Of a stretch of 36,559 nt of DNA, positions 7,631-12,819 are shown one piece after another. The notes below the pieces were generated by a model, which saw only the letters and a program-made list of their open reading frames with translations, made no database searches and had not been told where the DNA came from. Within the stretch, counting starts at the first letter, position 1; the number at the start of each line of letters is the position of its first letter. The position numbers and the translations under genes are program-made. Origin of the DNA: Actinomycetes bacterium (GTDB lineage: Bacteria > Actinomycetota > Acidimicrobiia > Acidimicrobiales > RAAP-2); contig JAJYQJ010000087.1 in NCBI GenBank assembly GCA_021794655.1, positions 1-36,559 on the forward strand. The letters run 5' to 3'.

Positions 7631-8694
7631 CGAGAGATCTCCTCGCGCTCACAGCCGACCTCGTATCGGTGGAGTCGGTGAGCCGAAACGAGAGCGCGAT
7701 CGCAGACCTCGTCGAGGAGAACCTTTCGTCGCTGAACTCGCTCGACGTCGTTCGCATCGAGAACAACATCGTCGCCCGCACCTCACACGGCCTCCCGAGA
7801 CGCCTGATCTTGGCCGGGCATCTCGACACCGTCCCTTCGCACGACGGCGCCGTCTGCCGGATAGACGGAGATACGCTCTTCGGCCTCGGCGCTTCGGACA
7901 TGAAAGGGGGGCTCGCCGTCATGTTGGACCTCGCCGCCGAGGCCGGTGATCCACTCGTGGACGTAACCTACTGCTTCTACGCCTGCGAAGAGGTCGACCG
8001 CAGCGAGAGTGGGCTCCTCACGCTCTTCGAGCAGGCTCCCGAACTCCTCGAAGGCGACGCCGCTATCCTCGGCGAGCCGACCGACTGCCTCGTCGAAGCC
8101 GGCTGTCAAGGCACGGTGCGCGCCGTTCTCCACCTCGGCGGCGTCCGCGCCCATGCCGCACGTCCGTCGACCGGCGTCAACGCGATCCACCGCCTCGCTC
8201 CGGTCCTCTCCCGCCTCGCCGGCTACAACGGGCGTCGCGTCGAAGTTGATTCGTGCCTCTACGAAGAGCAACTTCAGGCCGTCGCGGTGTCAGGTGGTAT
8301 CGCCGGGAACGTCGTACCAGACGCCGTCGACCTCGTGATAAATCACAGGTTCGCACCCGATCGTAGCGCCCGTGAAGCCGTCGAGTCCCTCGAGACGATG
8401 TTCCACGATCAGCTCCTCGGTGACTACGACGACTCTCTCACAGTCGACGACGTCGCCGAAGCGGCCCGCCCGTCGCTCGACTCTCCCATCCTCCAATCGC
8501 TCGTCGCACTCACCGGCGACGCCCCGAGGGCCAAGGTCGGCTGGACCGACGTCGCAACCTTCGCCTCGCACGGAGTACCCGCGACGAACTTCGGTCCAGG
8601 CGATCCTCTAACGGCGCACCGTCTCGGCGAGTGCGTGAGCAGGGCGGCACTCGAGCGGGCCCGCTCGATCCTCTCCACGCTCGTCTTTGGTTAG
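7627..8694 (+). CDS. dapE: Succinyl-diaminopimelate desuccinylase (M20 metallopeptidase)
   Basis: DapE hydrolyses N-succinyl-LL-DAP to LL-DAP and succinate using two zinc ions. GTG 7627 overlaps the dapD stop as GTGA and gives 355 residues beginning MTRDLLALTADLV. Metal and catalytic residues are visible: His65 and Asp67 in GHLDTVP, Asp91 in GASDMKGG, Glu121/Glu122 in ACEEVD, Glu150 in LGEPTD, and the late histidine in DPLTAHRLGE. The M20 dimerisation domain lies between the two halves of the catalytic domain. Its 3' end overlaps the convergent lexA stop codon by 4 bp. Together with dapC, dapD and dapF it gives four steps of the pathway within 6.3 kb. Confidence 0.94.
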   Translation: MTRDLLALTADLVSVESVSRNESAIADLVEENLSSLNSLDVVRIENNIVARTSHGLPRRLILAGHLDTVPSHDGAVCRIDGDTLFGLGASDMKGGLAVMLDLAAEAGDPLVDVTYCFYACEEVDRSESGLLTLFEQAPELLEGDAAILGEPTDCLVEAGCQGTVRAVLHLGGVRAHAARPSTGVNAIHRLAPVLSRLAGYNGRRVEVDSCLYEEQLQAVAVSGGIAGNVVPDAVDLVINHRFAPDRSAREAVESLETMFHDQLLGDYDDSLTVDDVAEAARPSLDSPILQSLVALTGDAPRAKVGWTDVATFASHGVPATNFGPGDPLTAHRLGECVSRAALERARSILSTLVFG

Positions 8695-9320
8695 AGCCGT
8701 CGTAGTACCGTGACGACCTTCCCGTATATCTTAATCTCCTCCGGCGAGTACGTCATCGGCTCGAACCGAGGGTTCGCCGGCCGTAGCACAATCTTGTCCC
8801 CCTCGCGCGACAGGGTCTTGACCGTCGCTTCATCGTCTGGGATACCCGCCACCACCACGTCGCCGTTCTCCGCGTCCTCCTGCTGGCGCACCACAACGTA
8901 GTCACCGTCGAGGATCCCCGCATCGATCATCGAGTCGCCCCTCACCCGAAGCATGAACGTCGACCCAGTACCGGTGAACTGCTCGGGTAGGGGTAGAAGC
9001 TCCTCTACGTTCTCCTGCGCCAAGACCCCAGTTCCCGCCGCGACATCACCGACGAGCGGAACGTGCCTGACAGGCTGGGCCGCAATCGCGGCCTTCGAAC
9101 TCGGGTCGTAGCGGACCTGGATCGCGCGAGGTTTCGTCGGATCCCGGACCAAGAACCCCTCTCTTTGAAGCACCGCCAGATGGGTGTGGACGGTGGAGGC
9201 GGACTTCAGTCCGACCGCCCCCGCAATCTCTCTCACCGACGGCGGATATCCCCGCTCACGGAGGTTCTTCGCGATGAAATCGATTATCTCGAGGCGTTTT
9301 CCAGTGAGTGCTATCGCCAA
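8691..9320 (-). CDS. lexA: LexA, SOS repressor and self-cleaving protease
   Basis: LexA represses SOS genes and autocleaves when stimulated by RecA-ssDNA. Counting from a possible GTG at 9329 (212 aa), the winged helix-turn-helix occupies residues ~1-70 (YPPSVREIAGAVGLKSASTV). The cleavage site is Ala98-Gly99 in DVAAGTG, the nucleophile Ser133 in GDSM, and the catalytic base Lys171 in ATVKTL. I place the start at TTG 9320 (209 aa): AGGAGG at 9334-9329 directly abuts GTG 9329, leaving no spacing, but lies 8 nt before this TTG. The gene is divergent from the LysM gene over three LexA boxes, so autoregulation is very likely. The stop overlaps dapE. Confidence 0.96.
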   Translation of the reverse strand: MAIALTGKRLEIIDFIAKNLRERGYPPSVREIAGAVGLKSASTVHTHLAVLQREGFLVRDPTKPRAIQVRYDPSSKAAIAAQPVRHVPLVGDVAAGTGVLAQENVEELLPLPEQFTGTGSTFMLRVRGDSMIDAGILDGDYVVVRQQEDAENGDVVVAGIPDDEATVKTLSREGDKIVLRPANPRFEPMTYSPEEIKIYGKVVTVLRRL

Positions 9321-9328
9321 CGTTGTCA

Positions 9329-9334
9329 CCTCCT
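9329..9334 (-). promoter_or_regulatory. Ribosome-binding site that decides the lexA start
   Basis: AGGAGG, on the minus strand, is followed by the 8-nt spacer TGACAACG and then TTG at 9320-9318. The in-frame GTG at 9329-9327 overlaps the purine tract itself, so initiation there is unlikely. Confidence 0.7.
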
Positions 9335-9403
9335 ACTCAGGTCTCCCCAGCGATTCAACCCGCGAACCTCCAGAAGAACTCGAACACAACTCTCGACGCC
9401 AAG

Positions 9404-9431
9404 AGTATCGCGCGGGTGTTTCAATTGCAAA
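9404..9431 (-). promoter_or_regulatory. Candidate lexA promoter
   Basis: On the minus strand, TTTGCA (9431-9426) and GATACT (9409-9404) are separated by 16 nt. The -35-like element overlaps the proximal LexA box at 9428-9441, as expected for autorepression. Both hexamers are imperfect, so this is tentative. Confidence 0.4.
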
Positions 9432-9441
9432 CATCTGTTCG
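9428..9441. promoter_or_regulatory. LexA (SOS) box 1
   Basis: CAAACATCTGTTCG matches the actinobacterial/Bacillus-type SOS box CGAAC-N4-GTTCG at nine of its ten defined positions. It overlaps the putative lexA -35 element. Confidence 0.75.
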
Positions 9442-9448
9442 AAAAGAC

Positions 9449-9477
9449 TTGACACGAACAGACGTTCGTGCTTTTAT
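9449..9477 (+). promoter_or_regulatory. Candidate promoter of the LysM gene
   Basis: A perfect -35 TTGACA (9449-9454) and TTTTAT (9472-9477) are separated by 17 nt, reading rightward. The entire spacer begins with the perfect LexA box at 9455-9468, so LexA binding would block polymerase directly. Confidence 0.65.
9455..9468. promoter_or_regulatory. LexA (SOS) box 2, perfect
   Basis: CGAACAGACGTTCG is an exact CGAAC-N4-GTTCG palindrome. It lies between the -35 and -10 hexamers of the rightward promoter. Confidence 0.88.
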
Positions 9478-9486
9478 GTTGGTATA

Positions 9487-9500
9487 CGAACAAGCGTTCT
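9487..9500. promoter_or_regulatory. LexA (SOS) box 3
   Basis: CGAACAAGCGTTCT has one mismatch from CGAAC-N4-GTTCG. It lies just downstream of the expected transcription start of the LysM gene. The box-to-box offsets are 27 and 32 bp (about 2.5 and 3 helical turns), which could permit cooperative binding. Confidence 0.75.
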
Positions 9501-9535
9501 GATGCCGCTAGTAACGATGCAGGTCAGGGCGGTAA

Positions 9536-9589
9536 GTGGAGACAGTGGCCAGTGTGGAGACAGTGGCCACTGTGGAGACAGTGCAACGG
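9536..9589. repeat. 18-bp tandem repeat, three units, in the LysM gene leader
   Basis: Units GTGGAGACAGTGGCCAGT (9536-9553) and GTGGAGACAGTGGCCACT (9554-9571) differ at one base. A third unit (9572-9589) matches over its first 12 bases. The array lies between the SOS promoter and the ribosome-binding site at 9598. GTGGCCAC within it (9564-9571) is palindromic. Confidence 0.8.
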
Positions 9590-9606
9590 GGTTGATTGGA
9601 GGAGCG

Positions 9607-10179
9607 ATGGCTCAAGCGCTACGGAGTTTGGAGTTGGACCGCACAGAGGACCGTATTGAGGACCGCCGGGTTCACCTGCACACCGTTCGTGGACGGCACG
9701 TCAACGACGATCGGGCTTTTACATATCGAGGCCCAAAGCTCGCGCTGGTGGAGACCCCCTATATGGGCGATAGGCGCTCATACGGGGACGGCCAGAGGCG
9801 GGAGAGAGTCCTGAATCGAGGTGGAGTTTGCTCCAGTGGTCACGAGAAGAGGTTCCACTCAAAGGTGTCGATCCGGATGAAAGGCAGTTCGATTGCCCTG
9901 GTCGTCGTCGCTACGGTAGCGGTTGTGACCCTCGCACTGCCGATCAAGGGACTCGGGGCGACGCCGCCCGTTCAAAGGGCTACGCGTGGTTCGAACCCCG
10001 CGCTTCCAAGCGTCGCGATGCCAGGTCAAGGGAGTGTCTACACGGTGCGACCTGGCGATACGTTGAGGTCTATTGCAAGGCGGCTCGACCCCGGGAGTCC
10101 AAGTGTAGCCTTTGTCCGCCTCGAGAATCAGATCGGCTCCAACGTGGTAGTGCCCGGTGAACACATAGAACTCCCCTGA
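9607..10179 (+). CDS. SOS-controlled single-pass membrane protein with LysM domain (ChiZ/YneA-like division inhibitor candidate)
   Basis: From ATG 9607, with GGAGGAG at 9598-9604, the product is 190 residues. It has an Arg/Asp-rich cytoplasmic N-terminus (1-93), one membrane helix at about 95-113 (SIALVVVATVAVVTLALPI), a Pro/Ser linker and a C-terminal LysM fold at 144-189 (YTVRPGDTLRSIARRL ... VVPGEHIEL). Layout and position match mycobacterial Rv2719c/ChiZ, which lies between lexA and nrdR, is DNA-damage induced and halts division. Bacillus YneA is the analogous TM-LysM inhibitor. Three LexA boxes precede it. The function is inferred from synteny and architecture. A later start at ATG 9877 would leave only the membrane helix and LysM domain. 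Confidence 0.8.
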   Translation: MAQALRSLELDRTEDRIEDRRVHLHTVRGRHVNDDRAFTYRGPKLALVETPYMGDRRSYGDGQRRERVLNRGGVCSSGHEKRFHSKVSIRMKGSSIALVVVATVAVVTLALPIKGLGATPPVQRATRGSNPALPSVAMPGQGSVYTVRPGDTLRSIARRLDPGSPSVAFVRLENQIGSNVVVPGEHIELP

Positions 10180-10272: not shown

Positions 10273-10755
10273 ATGCGGTGTCCATCGTGCTCGGCTGATG
10301 ACGACAGGGTTGTCGATTCGCGCTCGGCCGAAGATGGCTCGGCTATCCGCAGACGTCGTCAGTGCCTCGCTTGCGGTGAGCGGTTCACGACGTTCGAGCG
10401 TGCCGAAGACGTTCTCTTGACTGTGATAAAGCGCTCCGGAGAGATCGAACCCTTCGACGCGGGAAAACTCATCGCCGGCCTCCGCTCTGCGTGTAAGAAC
10501 CGTCCGGTAGGGGAGGATGACTTCATGAGAATCGCGCGCGGTGTCGAAGAGGAGATCCGCCAAGAGCTGTCACCGCCGACCACCCAGACGGTCGGCATAG
10601 CTGTTCTAGAACAGTTGAGAGCTCTCGACGAGATATCGTACTTGCGCTTTGCGAGTGTCTACAAGGGTTTCGAGGACGTCGATGACTTCCAACGCGAGGT
10701 TGGACTACTAACCAAGAAGATAACCAAGAAGACCGAAGCGAAACATTCAAAGTAA
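10273..10755 (+). CDS. nrdR: Transcriptional repressor NrdR
   Basis: NrdR senses dATP/ATP and represses ribonucleotide reductase genes. ATG 10273 gives MRCPSC, the invariant family N-terminus, and a 160-residue protein of normal size; earlier in-frame starts would add a non-conserved extension. The zinc ribbon is CPSC (residues 3-6) paired with CLACGERFTTFER. The ATP-cone domain follows (residues ~45-135), with VIKRSGEIEPFD and SYLRFASVYKGF. No clear Shine-Dalgarno sequence is seen. The TAA stop is directly followed by the ATG of the next gene, so translation is probably coupled. The lexA/LysM/nrdR order is conserved in Actinobacteria. Confidence 0.95.
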   Translation: MRCPSCSADDDRVVDSRSAEDGSAIRRRRQCLACGERFTTFERAEDVLLTVIKRSGEIEPFDAGKLIAGLRSACKNRPVGEDDFMRIARGVEEEIRQELSPPTTQTVGIAVLEQLRALDEISYLRFASVYKGFEDVDDFQREVGLLTKKITKKTEAKHSK

Positions 10756-11478
10756 ATGGGTGAACTCGTCGAGTCAGTTCCAAACGTCGTCCTCGCCGTC
10801 TACGCGCATCCAAACGATGCCGACGTCTCGTGTGGCGGGACGCTCGCGTACTGGGCGAGCCGTGGTAGCGAGGTACACCTCTTGGTATGTACCGACGGTG
10901 CGAAAGGGACGACGCAACTTGACTTGGACACTGCGATGTTCGCGACGACGAGGGCTATCGAACTTCGTGACGCCGCATCGGCGTTGAAACTATCTTCGCA
11001 CAGCATCTTGGGCTATCGCGACGGTGACCTCACCGAGGGAGAAGCGTTGAGAGAAGAGTTGGTTGCCTGGGTGAGGAGAGTCCGTCCTGATTCGGTGCTC
11101 GGCCACGATCCAACCGCGGTATTCTTCGGCCAGGAGTACTTCAACCACAGGGACCACCGCGTCGCCGGTTGGGCCCTGTTGGACGCCATCGCGCCCGCAG
11201 CCGGGCTGCCCCACTACTTTCCCGACGCGGGACCACCTCATCAGGTCGGAACTGTGTACTTGTCAGGCACGCTTCAGCCCGACGTCTGGGTCGACATCGG
11301 CTCGACAATTGAGACGAAGGTGGAAGCGGTTCTTTGTCACAGAAGCCAACTCGACGGTCACGGATCAGACACCAACGACTGGATGCGCGAGAGTGTTATT
11401 CAACGCGCAAGAGAGGCGGGCGGGTTCGCAGGTGTCGAGTTCGCCGAAGCGTTCAGGCGAGTTCAGCTACTTCGTTGA
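10756..11478 (+). CDS. PIG-L/LmbE-family deacetylase-like protein with altered HPDD motif
   Basis: This 240-residue protein has the LmbE/MshB fold. That family consists of zinc-dependent N-acetylglucosaminyl deacetylases (mycothiol, GPI and antibiotic pathways). The first metal motif reads AHPND (His18, Asn20, Asp21) where the family has AHPDD. By analogy with MshB, His18 and Asp21 are zinc ligands, and the replaced residue corresponds to the Asp that acts as general base. The third-ligand region HRDHRVAGWAL (131-141) is intact. The start codon abuts the nrdR stop, and dinB begins 15 nt after this gene, so nrdR, this gene and dinB probably form one transcript. The substrate is unknown; activity may be altered or lost. 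Confidence 0.8.
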   Translation: MGELVESVPNVVLAVYAHPNDADVSCGGTLAYWASRGSEVHLLVCTDGAKGTTQLDLDTAMFATTRAIELRDAASALKLSSHSILGYRDGDLTEGEALREELVAWVRRVRPDSVLGHDPTAVFFGQEYFNHRDHRVAGWALLDAIAPAAGLPHYFPDAGPPHQVGTVYLSGTLQPDVWVDIGSTIETKVEAVLCHRSQLDGHGSDTNDWMRESVIQRAREAGGFAGVEFAEAFRRVQLLR

Positions 11479-11493
11479 AGGCGGTAACGAGCT

Positions 11494-12819
11494 GTGGATC
11501 GAACGATACTGCACGTAGACATGGATGCGTTCTTCGCAGCGGTGGAGGTCCTCGACAACCCGGAGCTGAACGGCGTTCCCGTCGTCGTCGGCGGAACGGG
11601 AAAACGTGGCGTTGTCGCGTCGTGCAACTACGAAGCCCGGTTATTTGGCGTTCGCTCCGCAGTCGCGATGGCAAGCGCGAGGAGACTTTGCCCGAACGCG
11701 GTGTTCATCGACGGACGGTACTCGCGTTACGTAGAGGTGAGTGCGAAGTTGTACGAGCTATTGACGACCGTTTCACCCGTAGTCGAGCGGATTGGTCTGG
11801 ACGAAGCGTTCCTCGACATAGGCGGCGCTACGAGACTCTTCGGAGCGCCAATAGAGATCGCTGCTCGTTTGAGAGAGAGTGTCTTGGAAGAGCTCGGTCT
11901 AAACTGTTCCGTTGGCGTCGGTCGCTCCAAGATGATCGCAAAACTCGCCTCGAAAGCTGCGAAACCCCACCTGACACAGCGTGGCGTAGAAGTTGGCGAC
12001 GGCGTGTTGGTCGTCGAAGATAGCTCCGAGAGGTCGTTCTTGGATCCCCTCCCTGTTTCTTGGCTGTGGGGGGTAGGGGCGGTCACGAGAAAGAGACTTA
12101 GCGAGCTAGGGGTAAAGACCGTCGGCGACCTCGCGCAGATCCCGGAAGCGATTCTTATCAAGGAGTTTGGTAGCTCCCACGGGACGCACCTCGCTCTCTT
12201 GTCCAAAGGCATCGATGAAAGCCCGGTCGTCGCGAGCCGCCCGCCAAAGTCGATCGGCCGTGAGGTCACCTTCGCACAAGACTCATGTGACATCGAGTAC
12301 TTAAAGCAGCGCTTGAACGTACTGTCCGCCGGAGTATCGAGCCAGCTGAGAGAGGCCGGGCTTTCTGCCTCCAGGGTGAGCGTCAAGGTGCGTCTTGCCG
12401 ATCTGACGTTTCAGACGCGGTCCTTTACTCTCTCTACGTCTCTCGACACCGGACCGGCGATCAGCGCAGTCGCGCAGGCGTTACTCGACTCCCTCCCGAT
12501 CGACCGCGGGATCAGGCTGCTCGGAGTGTCCACCGCAAACTTCTCCGACGTCGAGCGTGCCGAGCAACTCTCGCTTCTCTCCATGCTCCACGACGACGGC
12601 GTGAGAAAGGTTGACTCGTCAGAGGGAGAAGATCTCCAAGAACAAGCCGCTGTCCTCGAGGACGGATGGCGCGAGATCGTCAAGGCCGTCGACGCGATCA
12701 GGGCAAAGTTTGGATACAGTGCAGTCGGGAACACGTCGACGCTTACCGGACTCGGGTTGCCATCGACTGCCCGCAGAGATGCCCCGTGGGGACCTTCCGG
12801 TCAAGACCCAGGCGATTAA
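11494..12819 (+). CDS. dinB: DNA polymerase IV (Y-family translesion polymerase)
   Basis: This is an error-prone polymerase for lesion bypass, 441 residues from GTG 11494. Palm motifs are intact: HVDMDAFFAAVE with Asp9 and catalytic Asp103-Glu104 in RIGLDEAFLD. Next come the thumb helix-hairpin-helix region (LWGVGAVTRKRLSELGVKTV) and the little-finger domain. QLSLL at about residue 358 resembles a beta-clamp binding peptide and is followed by an extra tail of ~80 residues. No LexA box is seen directly upstream. It may be transcribed from the nrdR operon, possibly with read-through from the SOS promoter at 9449. The sequence downstream carries tandem 22-bp repeats. Confidence 0.94.
   Translation: MDRTILHVDMDAFFAAVEVLDNPELNGVPVVVGGTGKRGVVASCNYEARLFGVRSAVAMASARRLCPNAVFIDGRYSRYVEVSAKLYELLTTVSPVVERIGLDEAFLDIGGATRLFGAPIEIAARLRESVLEELGLNCSVGVGRSKMIAKLASKAAKPHLTQRGVEVGDGVLVVEDSSERSFLDPLPVSWLWGVGAVTRKRLSELGVKTVGDLAQIPEAILIKEFGSSHGTHLALLSKGIDESPVVASRPPKSIGREVTFAQDSCDIEYLKQRLNVLSAGVSSQLREAGLSASRVSVKVRLADLTFQTRSFTLSTSLDTGPAISAVAQALLDSLPIDRGIRLLGVSTANFSDVERAEQLSLLSMLHDDGVRKVDSSEGEDLQEQAAVLEDGWREIVKAVDAIRAKFGYSAVGNTSTLTGLGLPSTARRDAPWGPSGQDPGD

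Follow-up and report, generated by a model that had tools for sequence, protein, structure and literature searches.

The window, i.e. the whole stretch of 36,559 nucleotides analysed here, which comes from a poorly studied lineage of Actinobacteria, contains a gene predicted to encode the SOS repressor LexA (8691-9329, minus strand) and, divergently oriented, a gene predicted to encode a small protein with a single transmembrane (TM) helix and a LysM domain (9607-10179, plus strand; lysM in the following). This arrangement raises the question whether both genes are controlled by LexA and whether the LysM protein acts on cell division after DNA damage. The best explanation, which we hold with considerable confidence, is a LexA-controlled divergon of the kind represented by YneA and ChiZ. 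By analogy with these proteins, a membrane-anchored, cell-wall-binding LysM protein would probably halt division after DNA damage. The boxes, promoter elements, gene order and domains described below are derived from the sequence and from its comparison with relatives.

LexA and its predicted boxes

The predicted LexA protein is a full-length member of TIGR00498 (E=1.7e-68) that combines a winged helix-turn-helix (wHTH; Pfam LexA_DNA_bind) with an S24 peptidase (Peptidase_S24), and its Ala-Gly cleavage site (A98-G99) and the catalytic residues S133 and K171 are intact. Three putative LexA boxes reported by the initial annotation were found at precisely the positions given there: box 1 (CAAACATCTGTTCG, 9428-9441) and box 3 (CGAACAAGCGTTCT, 9487-9500) each deviate by one mismatch from CGAAC-N4-GTTCG, and box 2 (CGAACAGACGTTCG, 9455-9468) matches it perfectly. 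The three boxes span 73 bp in total. Matches with at most one mismatch occur six times in the 36.6-kb window compared to 3.26 expected from dinucleotide shuffles, and under a Poisson approximation chance would produce only about 7e-5 groups of three within 73 bp per window, so that the cluster lies far beyond chance. A fourth, decayed site had been overlooked. Of this site (9381-9394), the half-site CGAACAC remains at 9381; its distance to the left of box 1 is 47 bp, and relatives carry an intact lexA-proximal box here.

The same motif was searched for in the remaining genome by pattern searches. The exact pattern GAACRNNYGTTC occurs at 17 places compared to seven for the reversed pattern, and outside the lexA locus it is found, among others, roughly 300 bp upstream of recA, at the start codon of ruvC, which is followed by ruvA and ruvB, and roughly 0.7 kb upstream of an imuB-like gene (the names recA, ruvC and imuB-like were assigned by reading the translations). 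Furthermore, a LexA box was detected upstream of recA in all 22 relatives with a locatable recA start, which supports the assumption that this is the LexA motif of the genome under study. With one mismatch allowed, the genome contains 259 matches compared to 57 for the reversed control, and single sites therefore mean little. That the boxes are merely chance palindromes in a genome rich in CGAAC and GTTCG, as this excess might imply, is nevertheless extremely improbable in view of their clustering, their conservation, their constant spacing relative to promoter elements and the presence of the motif upstream of recA in those relatives.

Two repeated sequences were noticed in the course of these searches. 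GATCATATGTTC or GACCATATGTTC occurs within the first 170 bases of many contigs (G000 C6, C23, C29, C31, C69, C71, C94, C100, C127 and others), probably representing a repetitive element that interrupts the assembly; it inflates the counts of LexA-like palindromes. An identical 22-mer, TGACACACCCTCGTTGTAGAGT, is present in five contigs (G000 C5, C29, C81, C104 and C139; L196, L198, L206, L209 and L212) and probably belongs to a repetitive element that includes a promoter-like sequence.

Promoter elements and two box pairs

On the lexA side, a putative -35 element (TTGCAA, 9425-9430, minus strand) is separated by 17 bp from a putative -10 element (TACTCT, 9402-9407, minus strand). In 42 of 43 loci the pattern TAnnnT is located exactly 20 nt past box 1, with practically no occurrence at other distances, and box 1 retains the asymmetric half CAAAC, which reads GTTTG on the lexA strand. 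Because of this GTTTG half and the fixed distance of TAnnnT, box 1 is predicted to contain the lexA -35 element, and the overlap proposed by the initial annotation is thus borne out.

On the opposite side, the rightward promoter is predicted to comprise the -35 element TTGACA (9449-9454, plus strand) and the extended -10 element TGC-TTTTAT (9469-9477, plus strand), the hexamer TTTTAT of which (9472-9477) follows TTGACA at a spacing of 17 bp. Box 2 fills most of this spacer, as had been described, and box 3 is located just past the expected start site. A generic sigma-70 scan of the window, which requires an A at the second position of the -10 element, detected no promoter here; the extended -10 element was revealed by the comparison across relatives. 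TTGAC immediately precedes a box in 43 of the 52 Acidimicrobiia-like loci compared to about 0.6 expected, and TGnTnnnnT is conserved after box 2 in relatives, so that the earlier promoter prediction including its weak -10 element is supported by conservation.

The leaders of lysM and recA show further features. Elements of the form TGTCACAC-N8-NAnnnT were detected in 16 of the 41 distinct lysM leaders examined (L016, L028, L029, L037, L041, L047, L057, L149 and others) and in 12 of 22 recA leaders, often as TGTCACACCCCCTCNNTAGGGT (L001 near 1729, belonging to the window genome, L167, L169, L174, L181 and others). Their resemblance to the RecA-NDp/PafBC promoter of Actinobacteria suggests a second, LexA-independent damage input. 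Such a second promoter was also sought in the lysM leader of the window and is absent there; the recA leader of the same genome does carry the TGTCACAC-like element and, in addition, two copies of a GGATTGGACAGT-like sequence. The lysM 5' leader of the window contains tandem 18-bp repeats of GTGGAGACAGTGGCCAGT (9536-9589, 2.7 copies), which are predicted to fold into a stable hairpin (leader z=-2.6) and are absent from the relatives examined.

The initial annotation considered the operator to be unusually dense, which is not confirmed by the comparison of 52 Acidimicrobiia-like lexA loci. Four boxes are the commonest number (24 loci), followed by three (17), five (6), two (4) and one (1 locus), and the window is therefore normal to slightly low. 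In most relatives the lexA-proximal box lies 41-49 bp left of box 1. Three genomes carry insertions between lexA and lysM (about 2.1 kb in G009 and in G017, about 3.7 kb in G024), with two boxes staying with lexA and two or three accompanying lysM, and extra DNA is present at the same point between the box pairs in L007, L014 and L035. Since the insertions in the three genomes fall exactly between the pairs, the four-box region behaves, as judged from these loci, as two pairs with one pair per promoter, a two-module structure that had previously been overlooked. The operator of the window is by this comparison one with a half-lost lexA pair and a whole lysM pair. As the lexA-proximal box is lost except for the half-site at 9381, the autoregulation of lexA may be looser in this organism.

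Insertions of 2-4 kb between the two box pairs are seen in the loci L162, L163 and L231. The first inserted gene in L162 and L163 is oriented in the direction of lysM and is predicted to encode a P-loop ATPase (GPxGxGKT), which may also be SOS-controlled.

The TM-LysM protein and its relation to known division inhibitors

The lysM gene begins with an ATG at 9607, preceded by the Shine-Dalgarno sequence GGAGGAG (9598-9604), and is predicted to encode a YneA/ChiZ-like division inhibitor of 190 aa based on its LysM domain, hydropathy, structural model and synteny. The initial description of an Arg-rich N-terminal part, one helix and a LysM domain is confirmed. The N-terminal part contains 17 Arg and 4 Lys compared to 13 Asp or Glu in 94 aa, the single TM helix (coded at about 9883-9936) shows a hydropathy peak of 2.58 and covers aa 93-110 in the model, and the C-terminal LysM domain (coded at about 10039-10167) is recognised by Pfam with E=1.2e-4 and 22.4 bits compared to a cut-off of 20.9. 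Pfam LysM matches 16 of the 17 family members. In a model built from 17 sequences the LysM domain reaches a pLDDT of 91-95 and the N-terminal part is of low confidence; the best fold matches in the PDB are LysM domains.

The LysM domain of the window protein reads GDTLR where GDTLW contains a near-invariant Trp, which is also missing in several relatives of the family, and this replacement by Arg might weaken peptidoglycan binding. No hydrolase domain was recognised by Pfam in the 17 members, although the protein may have hydrolase activity even so. Although the cytoplasmic N-terminal part varies among the LysM proteins of Acidimicrobiia, a short PxPALRLVxGG-like motif is repeatedly found in it; the copy in the window (RGPKLALV, aa 42-49) may represent a docking or degradation signal.

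Single-TM division inhibitors encoded adjacent to lexA have been described in Bacillus, Listeria, Mycobacterium and Corynebacterium, mostly with a LysM domain (PMC6851548), and no clear homologues of such inhibitors are known in Streptomyces (PMC9380542). The sequence features of the YneA/ChiZ kind are all found in the window, i.e. a divergent position adjoining lexA, predicted LexA boxes in the promoter, a single TM helix and a C-terminal LysM domain. The position next to lexA is conserved in 49 of the 50 Acidimicrobiia-like loci with sufficient room (L054 matched weakly), and in the sole exception (L024) an insertion is present and the LysM gene is kept 4 kb further on. The layout and synteny claimed by the initial annotation are therefore well supported. 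It had named the absence of the boxes or of the TM-LysM gene from close relatives as an argument against its proposal; both are conserved.

Like YneA of Bacillus subtilis, the window protein is encoded divergently from lexA under LexA boxes and has a single N-terminal TM helix and a C-terminal LysM domain predicted to be extracellular, and the family profile also recovers the gene next to lexA in Bacillus mojavensis (E=8e-6). Unlike the YneA-type Bacillus protein, it possesses a cytoplasmic N-terminal part of about 90 aa, and its downstream neighbours differ from those of the YneA locus in being nrdR, pigL and dinB. With ChiZ (Rv2719c) of Mycobacterium tuberculosis it shares the cytoplasmic N-terminal part, the single TM helix, the C-terminal LysM domain and the lexA neighbourhood (PMC6851548). 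This likeness refers to the published build of ChiZ; the sequence comparison was conducted via syntenic genes of other Actinomycetes. The genes of Prauserella and Trebonia match the profile with 1e-7 to 1e-9 and are likewise followed by nrdR, and pigL-dinB was not found downstream at these two loci. The profile furthermore detects lexA-adjacent genes of Metallococcus and several Paenibacillus but fails at some of the Bacillota lexA loci examined. DivS of Corynebacterium glutamicum and SosA of Staphylococcus aureus are likewise lexA-adjacent single-TM proteins and SOS-induced division inhibitors, but both lack the LysM domain (PMC6851548) that is present in the window protein, which was therefore not assigned to their type.

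YneA docks on TM7 of FtsW via its helix, and the block of septal synthesis requires binding of its LysM domain to peptidoglycan; ChiZ has been modelled likewise (PMC13396833). Division arrest and FtsW docking were shown for YneA only and would apply to the window protein by analogy. The divergon might also be SOS-controlled with the LysM protein remodelling the cell wall or recruiting hydrolases without stopping division itself, considering that cell wall hydrolase activity has been reported for ChiZ (PMC3989709) and that a LysM domain by itself indicates peptidoglycan binding only. Taking into account that none of the 17 members contains a catalytic domain and that YneA and ChiZ, which have been characterised and share this location and build, inhibit division (PMC6851548, PMC13396833), a role restricted to remodelling seems improbable, and we maintain the assignment as a putative division inhibitor.

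The downstream gene row and its predicted consequences

The initial annotation overlooked that lysM is followed on the plus strand by nrdR (10273-10755; TIGR00244 E=2.7e-46), by pigL encoding a PIG-L/LmbE-type deacetylase (10756-11478; Pfam PIG-L 8.7e-26) and by dinB encoding the Y-family DNA polymerase IV (11494-12819; Pfam IMS 5.5e-48), assignments which are further supported by the conserved gene order. The four genes are contiguous and in the same order in all 24 family genomes with data; in two genomes of other families lysM-nrdR and pigL-dinB are kept about 1 kb apart. No LexA box of its own was identified for dinB inside the predicted operon of the window, nor was one with at most one mismatch detected within 450 bp upstream of dinB in 11 relatives with dinB elsewhere, based on the best dinB match per genome only. 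SOS control of dinB is therefore predicted to come from gene order alone, in which case the division block and the translesion polymerase would be induced together.

It is accordingly important whether the row is transcribed as a unit. The alternative that the SOS response here is confined to lexA and lysM, and that nrdR, pigL and dinB are conserved neighbours expressed from other promoters without being induced by damage, appears rather unlikely. It draws on the gap of 93 bp between lysM and nrdR, given which nrdR could have its own promoter, and on the generic nature of the promoter and terminator scans, which leave room for an internal promoter; a crude scan found no separate nrdR promoter in that gap. 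Against it, pigL begins on the base right after the nrdR stop codon (0 bp) and dinB follows pigL after 15 bp, the order and the short gaps recur in the 24 family genomes, and the generic scan found no terminator-like site between the four genes. We therefore lean towards a scenario in which, in one Acidimicrobiia family, the rightward SOS promoter captured dinB via lysM-nrdR-pigL-dinB, so that the position of dinB would suffice to make it SOS-induced, jointly with a division brake and the repressor of ribonucleotide reductase genes, under two separable two-box LexA modules.

From these features we infer binding of LexA, induction by damage, transcription as an operon, arrest of division and FtsW as the target. 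As long as the cell is undamaged, LexA bound to box 1 would cover the lexA -35 element; on the rightward side, occupation of boxes 2 and 3 would cover the spacer of the extended -10 promoter and its start region. Upon DNA damage RecA would trigger the self-cleavage of LexA and both promoters would be freed. The rightward transcript would give rise to the membrane protein, the single helix of which may dock on the division machinery (FtsW, by analogy with YneA), and its LysM domain, facing outwards, would attach to peptidoglycan at the septum and bring septum synthesis to a halt. Since nrdR, pigL and dinB are probably part of this transcript as well, the division pause would be coupled to DinB translesion synthesis.

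Our literature search found no LexA regulon study in Acidimicrobiia and nothing relevant on an nrdR-dinB SOS operon. The lexA/TM-LysM arrangement as such is already known; according to the sequence comparison it is present here throughout a new bacterial branch, with dinB downstream in the row. This lineage-specific gene row would be a modest novelty if co-transcription of dinB and induction by damage hold. The predicted lexA-adjacent TM-LysM checkpoint is thereby extended to the Acidimicrobiia and is provided with an explicit promoter-level model of two box pairs, one per promoter, for which the loci with insertions represent natural test cases. If the operon is true, a Y-family polymerase would be placed under SOS control by gene order, and division arrest, nucleotide supply and mutagenic repair would be tied into one transcript.
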